A stretch of DNA of 64,000 bases from Candidatus Cybelea palsarum (GTDB lineage Bacteria; Vulcanimicrobiota; Vulcanimicrobiia; Vulcanimicrobiales; Vulcanimicrobiaceae), in contig PMUK01000204.1 of the NCBI GenBank assembly GCA_003166915.1, positions 18,556-82,555 on the forward strand. Direction: 5' to 3'. The notes beneath the pieces were generated by a model that searched no databases, was not told where the DNA came from, and worked only from the letters and a program-made list of their open reading frames with translations. A program made the translations under genes and the position numbers. Of the stretch, positions 41,819-51,096 are shown in pieces (positions within the stretch are counted from its first letter, which is position 1; each line of letters opens with the position of its first letter).

Positions 41819-42967
41819 ATGATCGTTCGCGCGGGGATTCTTTACGACGGGACGCTGGAGCCGCCAAAGCGCAACGTCGATCTGATCGTAAACGACGGAC
41901 GCATCGAGGAGTTTCGTGCGGCAAGCGGCGAGTGCGATCTCGAGGGCGCGTGCGTTACGCCGGGGCTGGTCAACGCGCACGCGCATCTCGAAGCAAGCGG
42001 CGAGCCCGACATGATGGGCATGATCTCGACGACGACGCGCAATCAGCGACTGCTGCGTGCCGTGGAGAACGCTCGTAAGTCGGTCAAGGCCGGGGTCACG
42101 ACCATTCGCGACGTCGGCAGCTCCAATGCGATTGCGCAAGACATTCGCGATGCGATCGAAGAGGGACGCATTCCCGGGCCGCGTATGCGTGCTGCCGGCG
42201 CCGTGCTCTGCATGACGGGTGGGCACGGCTGGCCGATCGGGCGCGCCGTAGATTCGCCTTGGGATGCGCGCAAGGCCGTGCGCGAACAGATGTGGGCCGG
42301 CGCGGATTGCATCAAGCTGATCGCGACCGGCGGCGTACTTACCAAGGGCGCCGTACCCGGCAACGCGCAGCTTACGCCCGACGAGCTGAGCTCCGCCATC
42401 GAAGAGGCTCATCGTCATGGCCTGCGCGTCGCGGCGCACGCAATCGGCACGCAGGGCATTAAGAATGCATTGCGCGCCGGGGTCGATTCGATCGAGCACG
42501 GAACCCTGCTCGATGACGAAGCGATCGAGCTTTTCAAGCAGCGCAACGTGTACCTCGTCCCGACGCTGAGCGCGCCGACCTGCATCCTGGCGCATCTCGA
42601 AGACGGCCGGCAGCCGGAGTACGTTCAGAAGAAGGCACGCAGCTTGGGCGGCGTGATGGCGCAGAATCTTCGCAAGGCGTACGAAAGCGGCGTGCGGTTT
42701 GCAGGCGGCTCGGATGCCGGCACGCCGTACAACTATCACGAGGACTACGCGCAAGAAGTCGAGTTGATGTGCTCGTTGCTCGGCATGACGCCGCAACAAG
42801 CCTTGCACGCGGCGACGAGCGTCGCCGCGGAGCTAGTCGGTTTGCATAATGGTCTCCTCGCCGCTGGCGAGCCGGCCGATCTGTTGCTCTTGCGCGCCGA
42901 TGCCGGCCAAGACGTGCGCGCGCTGCGCGAGCCGCAGCTCGTCCTCAAAGGCGGGTTGATCCAATGA
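41819..42967 (+). CDS. Amidohydrolase-superfamily enzyme (imidazolonepropionase/prolidase-like)
   Basis: This encodes 382 residues. Metal ligands are visible in order: VNAHAHLE (HxH), KLIATGG (Lys, possibly carboxylated), VAAHAIGTQG (His), SIEHGTLLDD (His) and FAGGSDAGTPYNYHED (Asp). The N- and C-terminal strands make the usual composite beta-sandwich. Relatives hydrolyse peptide-like or cyclic amide bonds. The substrate is unknown. It overlaps the secreted phosphoesterase start by 4 bases. Confidence 0.88.
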   Translation: MIVRAGILYDGTLEPPKRNVDLIVNDGRIEEFRAASGECDLEGACVTPGLVNAHAHLEASGEPDMMGMISTTTRNQRLLRAVENARKSVKAGVTTIRDVGSSNAIAQDIRDAIEEGRIPGPRMRAAGAVLCMTGGHGWPIGRAVDSPWDARKAVREQMWAGADCIKLIATGGVLTKGAVPGNAQLTPDELSSAIEEAHRHGLRVAAHAIGTQGIKNALRAGVDSIEHGTLLDDEAIELFKQRNVYLVPTLSAPTCILAHLEDGRQPEYVQKKARSLGGVMAQNLRKAYESGVRFAGGSDAGTPYNYHEDYAQEVELMCSLLGMTPQQALHAATSVAAELVGLHNGLLAAGEPADLLLLRADAGQDVRALREPQLVLKGGLIQ

Positions 42968-44361
42968 TGAAGAAATTGATCGCCGTGGTCGCGCTGCTCG
43001 GCTTGAGCGGTGTCACGAGTGCATCGACTTCGAATCCGACGCTGCTCGGGCAGGCCATACCGGGAAGTCCCATCCGCCATGTGATCGTGATGGTGCAAGA
43101 GAATCGAACGTTCGACAATCTCTTTGCGTCCTCGATTCTGGCGCACGGCGGTCCGTATCCCGGCGCCGATACGTCGCAGACGGCGATGGTTGACGGCGAG
43201 CGAGTCTCTTTGAAGCCCGTGCCCCTGGAGAACCCGTCCGATCCGAGTCACAGCCATCTCTCGCTCTTGGGCGAGTGGGATCGGGGCAGAATGGACGGTT
43301 TCGCGAATGACCGCATCTCGACGATACCCGGCTTTCCCAAGCCGGGACCCGGCTTTGCATACGGGTACGTGCCGGACGCCGAGATGACGATCTATCACTT
43401 GCTGGCGGCGCACTACACGCTTGCCGATGAGAACTTTGCGCCACGTTTGGTGCCGACGCTTCCCAGTCACTACACGATGGCGACGGCGCAGAGCCGAATC
43501 GCCGGCAACCCGAACAGCGAGATTTGGGGCTGCGACGCTCCGCCGAGCACGACCGTACCGATTTTCGGTAGAGGGGAATCGATAGTCACGCCGGGCGTCT
43601 TTCCGTGTTTTGACGAGCCGACGATCGGCGATTTGCTCGACGCGGCGCACGTCACGTGGAAGTACTATACCGGCCGGTACGACGATACCGTCAATCAAAC
43701 CGTCAATGTCTACGAGGCCTTCCGCAAGATTCGCTACGGTCCGGACTGGCAGCGCAACGTCATTACGCCTTCGGGCACAATCTTGAGCGACATTGCGGAC
43801 TGCCGGCTGCCGCAGGTTTCGTTCGTAATGCCGAACGCACTGGACAGCGATCATGCCGCGACGTTAAGCGGCGCAGGCCCCGGATGGGTTGGCTCCATTT
43901 ACCTCGCCGTCGTGCAGAGCATGCATGCCGCGGCCCAGTGTAACTATTACAAGGATACGGCAATGATCGTCACCTGGGACGACTCGGGAGGCTGGTACGA
44001 CCACGTCGCGCCGCCGCCCGGACCGGACGGCACAACCTGGGGCTTTCGCATTCCGATCATCGTAATGTCGGCCTGGGCTCGCTCTAACTACGATCCGGCC
44101 AATCCGAATGCAACGCCGTACGTGTCGCATAAACTCCGCGAGTCGACGGCCATCACGAAGTTCATCGAAGTGAACTGGGGCCTTGGGAACATGGGACAGC
44201 GAGACGTTACCGACGACGATCTCGGCGATATGTTCGACTATACGCGCGCGTCGCCGGTACCTGCGTACTCCGTGCTCTCGATGAAACGCCTGATCCGCAA
44301 AACGCGCTTCAACCTTGCCGCCGCGGATCGCGACAATCGCATCGTCGACAACGACCAGTAG
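42964..44361 (+). CDS. Secreted phosphoesterase (phospholipase C / acid phosphatase family)
   Basis: This encodes 465 residues with a signal peptide (KLIAVVALLGLSGVTSA). HVIVMVQENRTFDNLF is the family start, with the metal-binding Glu-Asn and the Thr in place of the usual Ser. Later motifs are APRLVPTLPSHYTMATAQS and ETAMIVTWDDSGGWYDHVAP-like residues around 43969-44010, containing Asp and His ligands. It should hydrolyse phosphodiesters or monoesters outside the cytoplasm. The C terminus is short, with no extra domain. Confidence 0.87.
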   Translation: MMKKLIAVVALLGLSGVTSASTSNPTLLGQAIPGSPIRHVIVMVQENRTFDNLFASSILAHGGPYPGADTSQTAMVDGERVSLKPVPLENPSDPSHSHLSLLGEWDRGRMDGFANDRISTIPGFPKPGPGFAYGYVPDAEMTIYHLLAAHYTLADENFAPRLVPTLPSHYTMATAQSRIAGNPNSEIWGCDAPPSTTVPIFGRGESIVTPGVFPCFDEPTIGDLLDAAHVTWKYYTGRYDDTVNQTVNVYEAFRKIRYGPDWQRNVITPSGTILSDIADCRLPQVSFVMPNALDSDHAATLSGAGPGWVGSIYLAVVQSMHAAAQCNYYKDTAMIVTWDDSGGWYDHVAPPPGPDGTTWGFRIPIIVMSAWARSNYDPANPNATPYVSHKLRESTAITKFIEVNWGLGNMGQRDVTDDDLGDMFDYTRASPVPAYSVLSMKRLIRKTRFNLAAADRDNRIVDNDQ

Positions 44362-44364
44362 CTG

Positions 44365-45507
44365 GTGGACTTGACGGGTCTGCGGCTTGCGGTGCTCGGC
44401 GCAATTTCGTGGCCGACGCCGCCGCCCGGCTACGGCCCGTGGGAGCAGATCGCGTTCAACGTGGCCGACGGCATGCGGCGGCGCGGCCTGGACGTTACGC
44501 TCTTTGCGACGGGCAACTCGCGCTTCGACGGCAAGCTCGCCTCGGTCGTCCCGGTTGGATTGAACGAGGACCCGGCGCTCAACGGTGAGATTTTCACTGC
44601 GCTGCACATCGCGGAGCTTTTTGCGCGCGCACGAGAGTTCGATCTGATTCACAATCACTTGGACTGGAAGCCCCTGACCTACGCGCTGGCTACGGATTCC
44701 CCGCCGCTGGTCACGACGATTCACGGCTTCTCGTCACCGCAGATTCTTGCGGCCTATTATGCCGGTGCGGCGCGCAGCTTCTACTGCTCGATCTCCAATG
44801 CAGATCGCGATCCGGGCCTCGAGTATCTCGCAACCACGTACAACGGCATCGATCCGGCGCAGTTTACATTCAGCAATAAACCAGGAGATTATCTCTGCTT
44901 TCTCGGCCGTTTTCATCCCGAGAAGGGGACGCATCTCGCGATCGAGATCGCCCGGCGCGCTGGCGTGCGTTTGAAGATGGCGGCGATCCCGCACGACGAG
45001 GCCTACTTTCGCGAACAGGTCGCACCCCACATCGACGGCGATCGCGTGCAGTTCCTCGGCGCGATCGAGCGCGAGGCACGCAACGAGCTGCTCTCGGAGG
45101 CGCTGGGGCTCATCCACATGACCACGCGGCCGGAGCGTTTCGGCATGACGCTGATCGAAGCGATGGCCTGCGGCACGCCGGTGCTAGGGGCGCGCATGGG
45201 TTCGCTTCCCGAGATCGTCGTGGACGGGGTGACCGGCTTCTTATGCGATACGGTCGACGATGCGGTCGAACGCGTGCCGCACCTAGCGGCGCTCGAGCGT
45301 CGCGCGTGCAGGACGCGCGTCGAACGGGAGTTCAGCGTCGAGCGAATGATCGATCGTTACCTTGCAGCGTATGGGCGCGCGCTCGAGTTGCGTTTGCCGC
45401 CGCCGCCGAGCGAGCACCTAAAAGAGATCCGCCGCCACGATTGGTGGGACCGGCCGATGGCGTACACGGAGATTCCGCCGAAGCCAAAGAACCTCGGCTT
45501 CATATGA
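44365..45507 (+). CDS. Glycosyltransferase family 4
   Basis: This encodes 380 residues and a GT-B fold. PPPGYGPWEQIAFNVADGMR is the acceptor-side start. FLGRFHPEKGTHLAIEIARR and RPERFGMTLIEAMACGTPVL hold the E-x7-E nucleotide-sugar site. GARMGSLPEIVVDGVTGFL is the usual ending of the catalytic domain. The start is GTG, 3 bases past the phosphoesterase stop, so the genes are probably co-transcribed. Donor and acceptor sugars are unknown. Confidence 0.9.
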   Translation: MDLTGLRLAVLGAISWPTPPPGYGPWEQIAFNVADGMRRRGLDVTLFATGNSRFDGKLASVVPVGLNEDPALNGEIFTALHIAELFARAREFDLIHNHLDWKPLTYALATDSPPLVTTIHGFSSPQILAAYYAGAARSFYCSISNADRDPGLEYLATTYNGIDPAQFTFSNKPGDYLCFLGRFHPEKGTHLAIEIARRAGVRLKMAAIPHDEAYFREQVAPHIDGDRVQFLGAIEREARNELLSEALGLIHMTTRPERFGMTLIEAMACGTPVLGARMGSLPEIVVDGVTGFLCDTVDDAVERVPHLAALERRACRTRVEREFSVERMIDRYLAAYGRALELRLPPPPSEHLKEIRRHDWWDRPMAYTEIPPKPKNLGFI

Positions 45508-45938
45508 AAACGCGCGAGGAACGCGACTACTCCGGGCGCTCGCTTTTGGAAAAACTCGGCGTGTTCGCCGAGGCGCACGTCGCGCTGGTTGGGCCGCACG
45601 ACGACCCTTTCGTTACGGGGCTAAATGCGTCGCTGGCAAAGTCGGCGTCGCAAGCACTGAGGACTCGCTACGATCTGATCTTCGTGCGCGTTGACGCCCT
45701 GCGCGATCTTGCCCGCATCAAGCGTGCCGCGGCGCACCTGAAGGCGGACGGTGCGCTGTGGGTCTTTCACCCCAAGGGCGGCGGCTCATCGCCGACCGAT
45801 GCGCAAGTGCGTTCCGCTGGGATCGCGACGGGTCTCGTCGACAATAAAATCAGCGCCTATACCGATTCACACACCGCGACACGCTTCGTCATCCCGCTTG
45901 CCCGCCGCGTGTCATCGGGAGACGTATTGTCATTCTGA
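45504..45938 (+). CDS. DUF3052-like protein
   Basis: This encodes 144 residues from the ATG at 45504, overlapping the GT4 stop by 4 bases. The start YSGRSLLEKLGVFAEAHVAL and the strand-helix pair DLIFVRVDALRDLARIKRAA, followed by DGALWVFHPKGGGS, match the DUF3052 pattern. A Lys after HP and an early GRSLLEKLG loop are conserved in that family. No enzymatic role is established. No signal peptide. Confidence 0.75.
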   Translation: MKTREERDYSGRSLLEKLGVFAEAHVALVGPHDDPFVTGLNASLAKSASQALRTRYDLIFVRVDALRDLARIKRAAAHLKADGALWVFHPKGGGSSPTDAQVRSAGIATGLVDNKISAYTDSHTATRFVIPLARRVSSGDVLSF

Positions 45939-45946
45939 CCGCGCAT

Positions 45947-46008
45947 TGTCATCATGAGTGCAGTCGAAGGACGGATAAGCGTGTCATCCTGGCCCAGTCG
46001 AAGGACGG
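45947..46008. repeat. Two diverged copies of the dispersed repeat (opposite orientation)
   Basis: TGTCATCATGAGTGCAGTCG plus AAGGACGG (45947-45974) and TGTCATCCTGGCCCAGTCG plus AAGGACGG (45982-46008) are direct repeats of each other. They are diverged reverse complements of the CCTTCGAC..CTCAGGATGAC core. They lie between the DUF3052-like stop and the convergent small gene. Confidence 0.7.
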
Positions 46009-46045
46009 CATGGCTACGTCACTACACCGCGGCGGAGGGGCAACC

Positions 46046-46282
46046 CTAAGCGCTCTCCCTCGTTGTCAGCTCCGTGAGCGTCTTAAAGTACCGCGAGTGG
46101 GTTTGTTTGAGCGTTGCCAGCGAGGGTGCTTCGAAGAAGGCGACCTCGACGTGATCCAGATCGGCGATAAGCTCTTCCTGGGTGACGCGCAAGGATTTCA
46201 TCGCTTTCGCGCGGCTACTCTCATCGTATTCCTTGATCGTCCGAAGCGCCAACTTCGTGTCATAAACAACCAGGAATATCAT
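46046..46282 (-). CDS. Small protein co-translated with RelA/SpoT-type synthetase
   Basis: This encodes 78 residues, alpha/beta with a charged middle (MIFLVVYDTKLALRTIKEYD; DLDHVEVAFFEAPSLATLKQ; THSRYFKTLTELTTR). The ATGA overlap with the synthetase stop implies coupled translation. I have an impression that similar small proteins follow single-domain synthetases in other bacteria, but I cannot name a family. It could be a regulator, partner or antitoxin; nothing in the sequence decides this. Confidence 0.65.
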   Translation of the reverse strand: MIFLVVYDTKLALRTIKEYDESSRAKAMKSLRVTQEELIADLDHVEVAFFEAPSLATLKQTHSRYFKTLTELTTRESA

Positions 46283-47028
46283 GGTAGCAAGGCTCGCAAT
46301 TCTGCCATCAAATCGAGAATTTCGTCATCTCGGTTGAAATACGCTTCTCGCATTTTGTGGAATCGTTCTACCACGGCTTTGCCGCCCTGAAAGGCGACTC
46401 GACGATAGGCGTAGTTAAACCCGGTAAACCCCTCCCAGTCTCCGTCGACTGACCGTTCCTCGTCAACAGTCGCTTGCTCGATCGGGCCGTCCGTTCCGCC
46501 TATCAGGATATCTGAATCCTGTGGGATCCGTCGTGAGCTGTAGAGTATAACGTCGGGGCCGATGAACTCGTCGAGCCTCATGGCGAAGTTTCCCGATTCA
46601 GGTGGATTCTTTAGTCGTACCTGCCAATTCGCCTCAAAGGCTTCCTGTGCGACCATCGATGCGGAAACCTCTAATAACGGCCGCCGAACGGCTTCAGGTC
46701 CGCCGCCGTACTTTACCTCAAGCCCAAGTCGATCTGCGACTTTTTCAACGACGGTCGCCCATTCGTCTTGATAACGTGTTCGTATTTGGATTTCGAATCG
46801 TTGAACGCCGGACCGGACGATCACGTGCACCGCACGATAACCGTGTTGAGGCGTCTGCCTACGATCAACAACTTGGGCTTTCGGGAACAGGCGCTGCAGG
46901 GTCTCTAGCCACTCGATTTGATCGATTACGTCCGGTACGACGAGCCGGCAGCCCACGAGATCTTGGATTTGAACAAGCTTGGTTGACTGTCGCCGAAGTT
47001 TGGCCACGACCGAGCGAATTGTTTTCAC
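46279..47028 (-). CDS. RelA/SpoT-domain (p)ppGpp synthetase, intact C-terminal part
   Basis: The open frame of 249 residues begins at GTG 47028 and covers most of a synthetase domain. The nucleotide helix is MKTIRSVVAKLRR (Lys, Ser, Lys). It continues with VQIQDLVGCRLVVPDVIDQI, QHGYRAVHVIVR, FEIQIRTRYQDEWATVVEKV and a long C-terminal extension (DSDILIGGTDGPIEQATVDE). It should transfer pyrophosphate from ATP to GTP or a related acceptor. No hydrolase, TGS or ACT domain is present. The usual N terminus lies upstream in two other frames. Confidence 0.75.
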   Translation of the reverse strand: MKTIRSVVAKLRRQSTKLVQIQDLVGCRLVVPDVIDQIEWLETLQRLFPKAQVVDRRQTPQHGYRAVHVIVRSGVQRFEIQIRTRYQDEWATVVEKVADRLGLEVKYGGGPEAVRRPLLEVSASMVAQEAFEANWQVRLKNPPESGNFAMRLDEFIGPDVILYSSRRIPQDSDILIGGTDGPIEQATVDEERSVDGDWEGFTGFNYAYRRVAFQGGKAVVERFHKMREAYFNRDDEILDLMAELRALLP

Positions 47029-47226
47029 ATTGCGCCTAGCGATCTGCGCGGGGCGCCGGCAGCCTCGGCGTCGAGATCGCGAATGTTAGCAAACGTCGTC
47101 TCTGCGAATGGCTCTAGAGTCTCCAAAAAGCGCCGCAGTTGCTGGATCGGCTAATGTCAAAGGCCCTGTGCGTAGCCTGTCGCCCAGCTTTTCCAGTTGC
47201 GACCCCGACAGCGCGTCGTACGGCAT
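47029..47226 (-). pseudogene. Out-of-frame N terminus of the synthetase gene
   Basis: From the ATG at 47226 one frame reads MPYDALSGSQLEKLGDRLR, the normal start of this synthetase family. A second frame then continues QLRRFLETLEPFAETTF. A third frame (RPAQIARRNVKTIRSVV) joins the intact part. Two small indels within about 150 bases are needed to reconnect them. Either the gene is decaying or the assembly has errors here. Confidence 0.65.
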
Positions 47227-47251
47227 TGCAACGTTCAGCGAAGGTCTGCGC

Positions 47252-48175
47252 TTACGGCGACGAGACCGGTGCGGCGGCGGCGGCTTCCATTGCCTGATAG
47301 GCTTTGCTTGTGAGCGTATGGTCAACGGCGCCGGCGATAAAGCGCGATGCTGCGCGCACCTTCGCGATGTCGACGCCCGTCTCGATGCTCATCCGTTCGA
47401 GCATGTAGAGCACGTCCTCCGTGCCGACATTGCCGGTGGCGCCGGGCGCATAGGGACACCCGCCGAGGCCGCCCGACGACGAATCAAACTTCGAAATGCC
47501 GTTGAGCAGCGCTGCGTACACGTTCGCAAGTGCGGTGCCGCGCGTGTCGTGAAAGTGCATCGCGATGAGAGCGAGCGGAATCCGCGCTGCAAGTAATGGC
47601 ACGAGGTCGTCGACCTGGTTCGGTACGCCCACGCCGATCGTGTCGCCGATCGACAGCTCGTCGCAGCCCATGTCCATCAGCTTGGATGCGACGTCGACTA
47701 CCATCTGCGGCGTCACCTCGTCGCCGAAGGGCGATCCGAAAGCGGTCGAGATATAGCCGCGCACCCAGCAGCCGTCGCGCTTAGCGGTGCTCACGACGTC
47801 GCCAAAGGTTGCGAGCGATTCGTCGATCGTCATGTTGATGTTGCGCTTCGTGAAGCGTTCGGAAGCAGCCGTAAAAACCGCGACCGCGTCGGCGCCGGCC
47901 GCCCGGGCGCGCTCGTAGCCCTTGAGATTTGGAACGAGCACCGGATAGCGTACGCCTGGCGCCTTACGAATGCGCGCAAACACCTCGGTAGCGTCGGCGA
48001 GCTGCGGAATCGCTTTGGGGCTGACGAACGAGGTCGCTTCGATCCACTTCAAGCCCGTCTCCGAGAGCAGATCGATGAACCGCACCTTGTCGTCGGCCGC
48101 AATGAGCGCGTTCTCGTTCTGCAGCCCATCGCGGGCGCCCATCTCAAAAATTGTAACGTGTTTGGGTAAGGTCAT
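47252..48175 (-). CDS. Hydroxymethylglutaryl-CoA lyase
   Basis: This encodes 307 residues. It is an HMGL-type TIM barrel: FEMGARDGLQNENALI binds metal and substrate, ATSFVSPKAIPQLADA follows, FHDTRGTALANV carries the metal His, and GGLGGCPYAPGATGNV holds the catalytic Cys loop. It cleaves HMG-CoA to acetoacetate and acetyl-CoA, the last step of leucine breakdown. I use the ATG at 48175. The in-frame ATG at 48196 lies against the dispersed repeat with no room for a ribosome binding site. Confidence 0.92.
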   Translation of the reverse strand: MTLPKHVTIFEMGARDGLQNENALIAADDKVRFIDLLSETGLKWIEATSFVSPKAIPQLADATEVFARIRKAPGVRYPVLVPNLKGYERARAAGADAVAVFTAASERFTKRNINMTIDESLATFGDVVSTAKRDGCWVRGYISTAFGSPFGDEVTPQMVVDVASKLMDMGCDELSIGDTIGVGVPNQVDDLVPLLAARIPLALIAMHFHDTRGTALANVYAALLNGISKFDSSSGGLGGCPYAPGATGNVGTEDVLYMLERMSIETGVDIAKVRAASRFIAGAVDHTLTSKAYQAMEAAAAAPVSSP

Positions 48176-48191
48176 GCCGTCGTTATCTCTC

Positions 48192-48262
48192 GTCATCCTT
48201 CGACAAGCTCAGGATGACACCGAGAGCGTCGTCCTTCGATCCTTCAGGCTCAGGATGACAAG
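48192..48262. repeat. Two copies of the dispersed repeat between leucine-catabolic genes
   Basis: GTCATCCTTCGACAAGCTCA plus GGATGAC (48192-48218) is internally palindromic (GTCATCCT/AGGATGAC). A second, slightly diverged copy (GTCCTTCGATCCTTCAGGCT plus CAGGATGAC) follows at 48230-48258. They fill the gap between the carboxylase alpha stop and the lyase start. Confidence 0.85.
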
Positions 48263-48288: not shown

Positions 48289-50235
48289 TCACGCGAGTTC
48301 CACCAATGTCGTGCCGCTGCTGACGATCTGCCCTTCTTTGACGAGGACGGATTTGACGCTCGCGGCGGCCGTGGCTTCTATGCGGTGCTCCATCTTCATC
48401 GCCTCGAGCACGATGAGAAGCGCATGCTCCTCGACCTCGTCGCCTTCGCGGACTGCGACCTTGACGATCTTTCCCGGCATGGGCGCAGCGACGAGTGCGC
48501 CGGCGACGCCCCCGTGGCTATGTTCGGCTGACTTCACAGATGGCGGCGAGGCAAACGAAAAGCACCACGTGCGACCGTCGAGATGGACGTCAAACGCGTC
48601 GCCGGCGTACGTTACTGCGCCCGAGATCGCCGTGCCGTCGAACCCGGCCTGCACGCGCTCGCCTCGCCGTTGAGCATGGAGTTCGACGGAATACGCACCC
48701 GATAAACGCCATGCCCCCAGAGCGCCAAGTGCATCTGCGACGATTTCGACGACGCTCTCGCCGTGTTGCAAGCGTAGCGGCACGCCGATCTCACCGATGC
48801 GCCAGGGCGCGCGACCGTCGACGAGCAGGGCCGCGGCACAGAGCAAGACCGCTTCGCGTGGCACTGCCACTGCCGAAAAGAACGATGCGTCGAAACGTTG
48901 ATCCAGAAAGCTCGTCGTCGTTTCGCCGGCGCGGAACGCATCGTCACGCGCGATCCAAAGCAGGAGCGGCAGGTTCGTGCGCACGCCGTCAACCCTGAAG
49001 TCGAGCAATGCTCGTTCAAGCCGCGCGATCGCGGCGCTGCGATCGCTGCCGGAGACTATCAGCTTAGCGAGCATCGGATCGTAGTAGTGGCTCACTTCGC
49101 TACCCGTTGTAACGCCAGAATCGACGCGAATCCCCGGCCCCTCCGGTGGCGACCAGCGCGCAATGAGGCCGGTCGACGGGAGCAAGTCGTTCGCAGGATC
49201 TTCAGCATAGAGACGGGCTTCGATCGCCCAGCCTCGCGCACGGATCTCGTCTTGCGCGAACGTAAGCGGTTCGCCCGAAGCAATGCGAAGCTGCCATTGC
49301 ACCAGGTCGATGCCGTAAACCAGCTCGGTCACCGGATGCTCGACCTGCAGACGCGCGTTCATTTCGAGAAAGTAAAACGCGCCGTCGGAATCCAGCATAA
49401 ACTCGGCGGTACCGGCATTGACGTAGCCGACCGATTCGGACGCGCGCACCGCCGCGGCGCCCATCTCCGCGCGCAGGTTCGGCGTCAACGCCACCGATGG
49501 CGCCTCTTCGATAATCTTCTGATGGCGCCGTTGAATCGAGCATTCGCGTTCCCCAAAGTGCAGCGTCGTGCCGTGCGAGTCGGCAAGGATTTGGAACTCG
49601 ATGTGACGCGGGTCGCGAAGGTAGCGCTCGAGCAAAATGGCATCGTCGCCAAAGGCTGCGAGCGCTTCGCGCTTTGCCGCCTCGAGCGCTTCGTCAAAGC
49701 GTTCGACCGAATCGACGACGCGCATGCCGCGGCCGCCGCCGCCCGCGCTCGCTTTAATCAGCAGCGGAAACCCGACTCGTTGCGCTTCCCGGCGCAACGT
49801 CGCGAGCGATTGGTCGTCGCCGTCATAGCCGGGAACGGTGGGCACGCCGGAAGCTCGCACGCGGCGTTTGGCTTCGATCTTGCTGCCCATGGCCGCCATC
49901 GCTTCGGGCGCCGGTCCGACGAAGATGAGTCCGGCATCGCGCACGGCGGCCGCAAACGGCGCGCGCTCGGAGAGAAATCCATATCCCGGGTGGACCGCGT
50001 CCGCCTTCATCGCGAGCGCCGCCGCGATGATTGCCTCGGCGTTGAGGTACGATTGCGCTGCCGCCGCCGGACCGACGCATCGCGCCTCGTCGACGAACTG
50101 CAAATGATAAGCGTTTGCGTCGGCTTCCGAGTAGATGCCGAGCGGCACGATCGCCATTTCGCGTGCCGCGCGCGCGATCCGCACCGCGATCTCGCCGCGA
50201 TTGGCGATCAGGAGTCGCGTGATTAGGGTGTTCAG
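48289..50235 (-). CDS. Methylcrotonyl-CoA carboxylase alpha subunit (biotin carboxylase + BCCP)
   Basis: This encodes about 648 residues. The biotin carboxylase domain starts LLIANRGEIAVRIARAA and includes GGGGRGMRVV, HIEFQILADSHGTTLHFGER and EMNARLQVEHPVTELV. A linker leads to the C-terminal carrier domain with the biotinylated Lys in LEAMKMEHRIEA. With the beta subunit at 53769 it carboxylates 3-methylcrotonyl-CoA in leucine catabolism; the context supports this over acetyl- or propionyl-CoA. No ATG, GTG or TTG lies near the domain start. The CTG at 50235, overlapping the upstream stop (CTGA) with GAGGA 9 bases before it, is the best start. Confidence 0.88.
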   Translation of the reverse strand: MNTLITRLLIANRGEIAVRIARAAREMAIVPLGIYSEADANAYHLQFVDEARCVGPAAAAQSYLNAEAIIAAALAMKADAVHPGYGFLSERAPFAAAVRDAGLIFVGPAPEAMAAMGSKIEAKRRVRASGVPTVPGYDGDDQSLATLRREAQRVGFPLLIKASAGGGGRGMRVVDSVERFDEALEAAKREALAAFGDDAILLERYLRDPRHIEFQILADSHGTTLHFGERECSIQRRHQKIIEEAPSVALTPNLRAEMGAAAVRASESVGYVNAGTAEFMLDSDGAFYFLEMNARLQVEHPVTELVYGIDLVQWQLRIASGEPLTFAQDEIRARGWAIEARLYAEDPANDLLPSTGLIARWSPPEGPGIRVDSGVTTGSEVSHYYDPMLAKLIVSGSDRSAAIARLERALLDFRVDGVRTNLPLLLWIARDDAFRAGETTTSFLDQRFDASFFSAVAVPREAVLLCAAALLVDGRAPWRIGEIGVPLRLQHGESVVEIVADALGALGAWRLSGAYSVELHAQRRGERVQAGFDGTAISGAVTYAGDAFDVHLDGRTWCFSFASPPSVKSAEHSHGGVAGALVAAPMPGKIVKVAVREGDEVEEHALLIVLEAMKMEHRIEATAAASVKSVLVKEGQIVSSGTTLVELA

Positions 50236-51038
50236 ACTGACGGGTCCTCGCGCTCTAGATCTTTTACAAACGAAGCCTGCCGGCGTTCGAGGAAGGCTCG
50301 CAACCCTTCTTGGCCTTCGGTGCCGATGCGCTGCTGCGCGATCGCGCGCGCGGTAATCGCACGCGAATCGTCGTAATCGTTGTCGATCACGCGGCGGATC
50401 AGCAGTTTCGCGGCGCGTACGGCCGCGGGGCCCGCCGTGAAGAGTTCTTCCAGGCAATGCTCGACGGCGGCGCCGAGCTCGACCGTGGGGACGACTTTGT
50501 GGACGAGCCCGATGTGCTTGGCCCGCTGCGCGTCGAAACGTTCTCCCGTCAGGAAGAGCGCTCGCGCGTGCGACGCGCCGATCTTTGCGAGAACGAACGG
50601 AGAGATCACCGCCGGAATGATGCCGAGCTTGACCTCGGTGAATCCGAAGACCGCATCGTCCGCCGCGATGGCGATGTCGCAGACGGCCGCGAGGCCGGCG
50701 CCTCCTCCGAGTGCGGCGCCGTGGATTTGGCCGATCACCGGCTTGGGACAGTTATCGATTGTGCGAAACATGTCGCTCATGCGCTCGGCGTCGGCGACGT
50801 TGGCATCGAAGCTCAGCTCGAGCGACTCGCGCATCCACTTGATATCGGCGCCCCCGCAGAAGACTTTGCCCTCGCCGGCCAGCACGACCGCGCGCACGTC
50901 GTCTGCCGCCGTGATCCTCGCAAAAACGTCGTGCAGACGCTCGATTGTCTCGGCATTGAAGGCGTTGCGGGCCTCGGGCCGTGACAGGGTGACGTGGGCT
51001 ATGCCCTCAGAGACGACGAGGCGAATGCTCTCGGCCAT
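50232..51038 (-). CDS. Enoyl-CoA hydratase/isomerase (probable methylglutaconyl-CoA hydratase)
   Basis: This encodes 268 residues and the crotonase fold. The oxyanion-hole segments are KVFCGGADIKWMRES and IHGAALGGGAGLAAVCDIAI. A Glu is in VFGFTEVKLGIIPAVISPFV. Between genes for methylcrotonyl-CoA carboxylase and HMG-CoA lyase, the expected substrate is 3-methylglutaconyl-CoA. The ATG at 51038 fits the family start. It is divergent from the cytochrome b gene and coupled to the carboxylase gene. Confidence 0.88.
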   Translation of the reverse strand: MAESIRLVVSEGIAHVTLSRPEARNAFNAETIERLHDVFARITAADDVRAVVLAGEGKVFCGGADIKWMRESLELSFDANVADAERMSDMFRTIDNCPKPVIGQIHGAALGGGAGLAAVCDIAIAADDAVFGFTEVKLGIIPAVISPFVLAKIGASHARALFLTGERFDAQRAKHIGLVHKVVPTVELGAAVEHCLEELFTAGPAAVRAAKLLIRRVIDNDYDDSRAITARAIAQQRIGTEGQEGLRAFLERRQASFVKDLEREDPSV

Positions 51039-51096
51039 GGGCGCCGGGGTTCGAGGCGTCATCCGAGCGGGCCTCGCGCGCGTTATACTTACAGGA

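Follow-up and report, generated by a model that had tools for sequence, protein, structure and literature searches.

What is the small gene that begins at the stop codon of a RelA/SpoT-type synthetase gene in Candidatus Cybelea palsarum (Vulcanimicrobiota), and is the synthetase itself still whole? The two genes lie in a stretch of 64,000 nucleotides of contig PMUK01000204.1 (assembly GCA_003166915.1, positions 18,556 to 82,555), hereafter the window, and an initial annotation had described a RelA/SpoT-type synthetase overlapping a 78-residue gene by ATGA; both open reading frames (ORFs) and the overlap were found (Table 1). Four things are observed here, namely the descent of both genes, their strict linkage, the predicted fold and the frame break as assembled, and we read the pair, at a probability of roughly 0.85, as an unfused toxSAS module of the PhRel/CapRel type that is most likely decaying, beginning with its toxin, while the antitoxin is intact.

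Identity of the toxin and its 78-residue partner

The body of the synthetase matches Pfam RelA_SpoT (PF04607, E = 1.7e-14) and falls in phrog_4773 (E = 2.2e-19), the family of gp29 of Mycobacterium phage Phrann (E = 8.3e-73), and its partner is assigned to phrog_22117 (E = 1.3e-7), as is Phrann gp30 (E = 3.1e-38). The PADLOC profile PDC-S33 (349 positions), which covers the fused toxin CapRel-SJ46 nearly end to end (E = 7e-87) and is named in no paper of the literature searched, is matched collinearly by the two products, the toxin at positions 72-216 and the partner, weakly (E = 0.0065), at 265-333. In the predicted toxin structure, core residues 31-130 have high and residues 159-197 very low confidence, and the best match is CapRel (7ztb, E = 6.1e-6). 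The toxin continues for 138 residues beyond its KYGGGP motif (46282-46695), whereas the 23 relatives with the motif have a median of 69 and at most 110 there. The third-position GC of its body, 0.56, is below that of the partner and neighbouring genes (0.72-0.79).

When the window was kept out of the partner profile (76 relatives), the 78-residue ORF was still the sole match among 952 window frames (E = 1.4e-17; one relative at a contig end, L093, was dropped from the partner profiles). With the window included, the profile finds gp30 (E = 6e-14) and the C-termini of fused proteins from Nostoc (E = 7e-8), loci L009 (E = 5e-6) and L010 (E = 5e-4) and SJ46 (E = 0.005); the fused L010 protein aligns over its length with solved CapRel (7ztb, 9erv; E = 1.4e-42). 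Comparison of the predicted partner structure (mean predicted local distance difference test score 82) by VIA placed ATfaRel2 (8pu1 and 8pu3; Z 5.0 and 4.8, root-mean-square deviation 1.9) at ranks 1 and 2 and CapRel (7ztb and 9erv; Z 4.4 and 4.2) at ranks 3 and 4, with all other structures at Z 3.8 or below. As judged from sequence and model, then, the partner is a putative antitoxin that shares ancestry with the antitoxin domain at the C terminus of fused CapRel. The earlier suggestion of an antitoxin-like, co-translated partner is supported by the profile matches, the PHROG family, the structure comparison and co-occurrence in phylum genomes. Other searches added little: one profile (A2) against the sequences of solved structures found nothing meaningful, and one partner sequence against plasmids gave no match; a further profile (A4) was built on the 68 of 77 partners that start with ATG and have no more than 100 residues. 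A weak Pfam match to Peptidase_M13 (E = 0.056) was taken as chance. The common PDC-S33 profile raised the idea that the partner is a C-terminal fragment split off by a frameshift, which was rejected because separate partner genes occur in nine other genomes of the phylum and at 78 of 80 loci elsewhere.

The window thus combines a toxSYNTH domain of the toxSAS kind with an adjacent putative antitoxin homologous to gp30 and the CapRel C-terminus. It resembles PhRel-ATphRel (gp29-gp30) of Phrann in gene order (toxin, then small antitoxin), in PHROG families and in the THSRYF motif, but the Phrann pair is phage-borne and separated by a short intergenic gap instead of ATGA, whereas the window toxin is broken and lies beside an HMG-CoA (3-hydroxy-3-methylglutaryl-coenzyme A) lyase gene. 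Since gp30 carries the histidine form of the motif and gp29/gp30 is reported to defend against phages (PMC9262239), this form is compatible with a working system. CapRel-SJ46 (7ztb, 9erv), with toxSYNTH followed by the antitoxin domain, is collinear with the pair but is a single protein, not two ORFs, carries AYPNYF (YXXY) where the window has HxRY, and belongs to the clade of fused rows (98/97) in our toxin tree (37 of the 80 loci plus 18 other rows). Unfused CapRel-ATcapRel pairs on Arthrobacter and Pseudarthrobacter plasmids share the build, but the actinobacterial and phage rows form a clade (97/97) apart from the window, and rows from many phyla fall into no resolved grouping. FaRel2-ATfaRel2 supplies the partner's best structural match (over 56 residues), but at 9% identity and with no sequence match by the partner profile; ATfaRel2 has been called a circular permutation relative to CapRel (PMC11782079). 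According to PMC9712102, the fused form predominates in CapRel except in Actinobacteria, and the unfused form is commonest in PhRel; a model of unfused Mycobacterium tuberculosis CapRel has been published (PMC11782079).

The characterised relatives are described as toxic alone, neutralised by their partner, and acting by pyrophosphorylation of the tRNA 3'-CCA end (PMC9712102, PMC11559606, PMC11782079). In CapRel, the YXXY within AYPNYF occludes the adenine site, which lies between R79 and R116 (PMC9712102). By analogy, an intact synthetase of the window type would pyrophosphorylate tRNA. Its antitoxin, probably produced by translational coupling, would occupy the ATP site with its conserved His-x-x-Tyr turn, which corresponds to the YXXY site of fused CapRel, until a trigger from a phage releases it. 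The label 'alarmone synthetase' therefore holds for the fold of the window enzyme but not for its likely chemistry, since characterised relatives of the branch modify tRNA (PMC9712102, PMC11559606).

Linkage and distribution of the pair

A first scan of the contig collection with the window toxin alone found nothing. Searching the collection through the toxin gave 135 confirmed loci, of which the best 80 were analysed; they come from 17 named phyla, with six of the 80 carrying no rank. The partner adjoins the toxin at 78 of these loci (77 downstream on the same strand, one convergent), and the other two (L092, L145) stop at a contig edge, so that the test set beforehand, a homologue lacking the small gene, found none among the evaluable loci. 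With start codons picked by rule, the distance from the toxin stop is between -17 and +23 bases for 76 of the 77 same-strand partners, the exception being L103 with its shortened toxin, and 24 of the 77 show a four-base overlap. The motif H.[RK]YF is present in 74 of 77, the exceptions being L093 (contig end), L130 (THRRFF) and L146 (YYDRYF).

A survey of 149 Vulcanimicrobiota genomes (partner threshold E = 0.01) found the partner in 12, beside an unfused toxin in ten, as a fused C-terminus in one (G099) and as two weak matches only in one (G007). Toxin and partner co-occur in all ten unfused carriers, and, the weak G007 matches aside, no orphan partner was found in the 149 genomes; the toxin and, with the same reservation, the partner are absent from the 17 genomes of the same genus. 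The same pairs occur at L075, L144 and L154 (Candidatus Eremiobacterota records; Vulcanimicrobiota by NCBI rank) and in G129, G118 and G117 of the window's own family, an agreement that assigns the window to this phylum.

Single loci depart from the common pattern in other ways. At L141 (3844-4077, minus strand) the convergent partner is the only one lying on the opposite strand, outside the toxin operon. One Syntrophobacter genome (SbD2) carries three pairs (L083, L115, L119), two of them about 11 kb apart on one contig. A metagenome-assembled genome labelled Klebsiella pneumoniae (L113) has a pair whose nearest relatives are copies from Acidobacteriota and Nitrospirota; the label of the bin may be wrong.

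The apparently broken toxin and the alternatives

The N terminus of the window toxin does not read through. From ATG 47226 to about 47127 the codons are in the frame of the body; the last third of the N-terminal piece (47089-47226) then reads out of the homologous frame, and for about 30 middle codons a fit to the relative L013 appears only in another frame (FLETLEPFAETTF against FLLSFRDFAENTF; local score 34, reached by 24 of 2,000 shuffles), the same segment scoring only -0.9 bits against the general toxin profile. The initial annotation had placed the N-terminal 70 codons in two other frames; only these middle codons fit another frame, and the start shares the frame of the body. The in-frame TAA at 47088-47086 is followed by no ATG, GTG or TTG before GTG 47028, and the position of the second frameshift point is approximate. 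Two compensating indels are the likely cause of the shifted segment, as the frame comparison suggests.

Table 1. Features of the toxin–antitoxin locus and its surroundings in the window.
Feature	Position	Strand	Basis or remark
Predicted antitoxin, ATphRel/CapRel C-terminal-domain type, motif THSRYF	46046..46282	-	78 aa
ATGA overlap, toxin stop/antitoxin start	46279..46282	-	sequence
toxSYNTH (RelA_SpoT) toxin body	46279..47028	-	249 aa from GTG 47028
Codon of Arg equivalent to the ATP-binding beta-1 Arg, 2 codons ahead of GTG	47032..47034	-	alignment
Middle segment in other frame, limits approximate	47050..47126	-	fits relative L013 in that frame
N-terminal toxin piece in the body's frame, ATG 47226 to TAA 47088-47086	47089..47226	-	profile positions from 2; E 0.022 alone
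HMG-CoA lyase gene, directly upstream of the unit	47252..48196	-	gene match
Stretch absent at the same place in G010 and G003	45916..47259	.	comparison

In an alignment (A5) of the window with 48 of the 71 listed toxins, 21 columns are invariant in those 48, and the window ORF lacks the two upstream of its GTG, one of them the Arg before the K...SI..K motif, which is a gap in the window ORF; the ATP-binding role is that of CapRel R79 (PMC9712102), and the register of this Arg (R79 rather than its neighbour R78) rests on our alignment. If the assembly is right, the toxin gene is broken, with an in-frame stop codon and the Arg outside the usable ORF, and has neither the unbroken frame nor the complete ATP site of an active toxin. 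The decay most likely leaves the toxin inactive rather than unrestrained, because the first usable start comes after an Arg invariant in the 48 other toxins. The suggestion that the decay may free the catalytic part from control finds no support, since control would sit in the intact partner (or, in fused proteins, in the C-terminal domain), and what is lost is the N-terminal part with the ATP-holding Arg. An antitoxin left beside a broken toxin could be a remnant, could protect against related toxins or could simply be a bystander.

We caution that several results weigh against reading the locus as a decaying PhRel/CapRel-type pair. Foldseek alone gave no significant match of the partner to the PDB (rank 1, 7ztb_B, E = 0.95), the top VIA Z of 5 is low, and a literal YXXY is absent from the window partner, which reads HSRY. 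The tree leaves 25 of 51 inner branches open and does not settle whether the window's branch belongs to PhRel, to CapRel or to a third group. The evidence for the frame of the middle segment comes from L013 alone, the same test with L075 and L144 having shown nothing. None of the 19 invariant positions that follow the GTG has been lost from the body, and the decay, if real, must therefore be recent. Finally, both indels could be local assembly errors.

This last point leads to the alternative that survives best, an intact module in a draft genome whose assembly or consensus sequence is wrong at the frame changes, which we regard as unlikely but worth taking seriously. The first shift falls at a run of T, the genome (3.36 Mb, 94.8% complete) is in 249 contigs, and, as noted, the body retains its invariant residues; but this would require two errors in a span of about 80 bases, and each of the neighbouring genes (41819-42964, 42964-44358, 44362-45504, 47303-48175, 48292-50445 and 50235-51062) keeps a single frame against genomes G003 and G010, with identities of 91.8-97.4%. 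Flanking blocks are about 89-95% identical to both genomes with few gaps, and about ten shadow or end-extended frames matched them in two pieces. The toxin is, moreover, broken elsewhere, in G034 and, among the 80 loci, in L131, L136, L139 and probably L103. In G034 (contig C21, locus L007), the second Vulcanimicrobiota toxin found broken across frames, the partner ORF with its ATGA overlap is intact. We considered whether toxins breaking more often than partners (these five and the window, against no partner) signals a cost of the toxin, and rejected this: the bias is not significant, the toxin being about three times longer, so that by our own arithmetic it is expected about once in six, and the loci were found via the toxin.

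That the cell makes an active, shortened protein from GTG 47028 which has escaped N-terminal control is very improbable: its body is open for 249 codons with the core predicted at high confidence, but it starts past the invariant Arg, without the N-terminal part, and inhibition in relatives comes from the antitoxin (PMC9712102, PMC11782079), which is intact here. Equally hard to sustain is a housekeeping small alarmone synthetase of the RelQ/RelP type with a regulatory partner, since, although RelQ and RelP share the enzyme fold, their structures come after CapRel in the fold search and some copies of the pair lie between metabolic genes (the window's beside HMG-CoA lyase), the toxin scores 25.6 bits against the 320-bit cut-off of the NCBIfam YjbM model (a score that the truncated ORF lowers), the genome's only other RelA_SpoT match is a long Rel of its own (L001), the partner is an antitoxin homologue, and presence is patchy (10 of 149 genomes).

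Genomic site, restriction-embedded relatives and meaning

The same HMG-CoA lyase gene precedes the unit in G069, G118 and G123, and in the tree the window toxin clusters with the G069 toxin (locus L013) at 90/84, not starred. In the two genomes compared at this site, where the unit is absent, G010 is contiguous and G003 has Ns at that point. The shared HMG-CoA lyase site and the grouping with G069 favour old residence with repeated loss over independent insertion. Beyond the unit, genes for an amidohydrolase and a glycosyltransferase lie on the same strand in G069 and G118 and on the opposite strand in the window (41825-47259; compare L013 and L016), suggesting a local inversion. Short repeats (TCCTTCGACTG..GATGACA) occupy 45930-46035, ahead of the gene that comes next to the unit, and similar letters stand near that gene in relatives.

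Defence context was scanned in 87 of the 145 nearest neighbours, and PADLOC matches were found in 14 families of at most three members each; the Pfam matches listed (25 of 84 families) are mostly to ordinary metabolism. Restriction-modification neighbours were outside those 87, so the tally understates defence genes. In nine of the 80 related loci (L137, L138, L142, L143, L147, L148, L149, L150 and L152; Rhodocyclales, Burkholderiales, Oceanospirillales and others) the pair lies inside a type I restriction operon, in the order hsdM, toxin, antitoxin, hsdS on one strand (hsdS unmatched in L152), and the antitoxins end in a hydrophobic, membrane-like tail. The literature search found no paper title naming this sub-branch. 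The anticodon nuclease PrrC guards restriction against phage anti-restriction, and the embedded pairs are possibly restriction guards too. Tentatively, and with less than even confidence, we propose that the window is a decaying copy of a large unfused PhRel/CapRel-like branch that spans at least 17 phyla and carries a His-x-Arg-Tyr neutralising motif, with a sub-branch in type I operons whose toxin, by modifying tRNA, would act as a guard of restriction when phages deploy anti-restriction.

For the locus itself, an open question on the nature of the partner is replaced by a testable answer, and the site resembles a toxin–antitoxin pair losing its toxin first. Unfused pairs of this kind are in print; the distribution found here indicates that many phyla beyond Actinobacteria commonly carry the unfused form. 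The phylum Vulcanimicrobiota gains a named defence module, and the restriction-embedded copies are the part most deserving follow-up.
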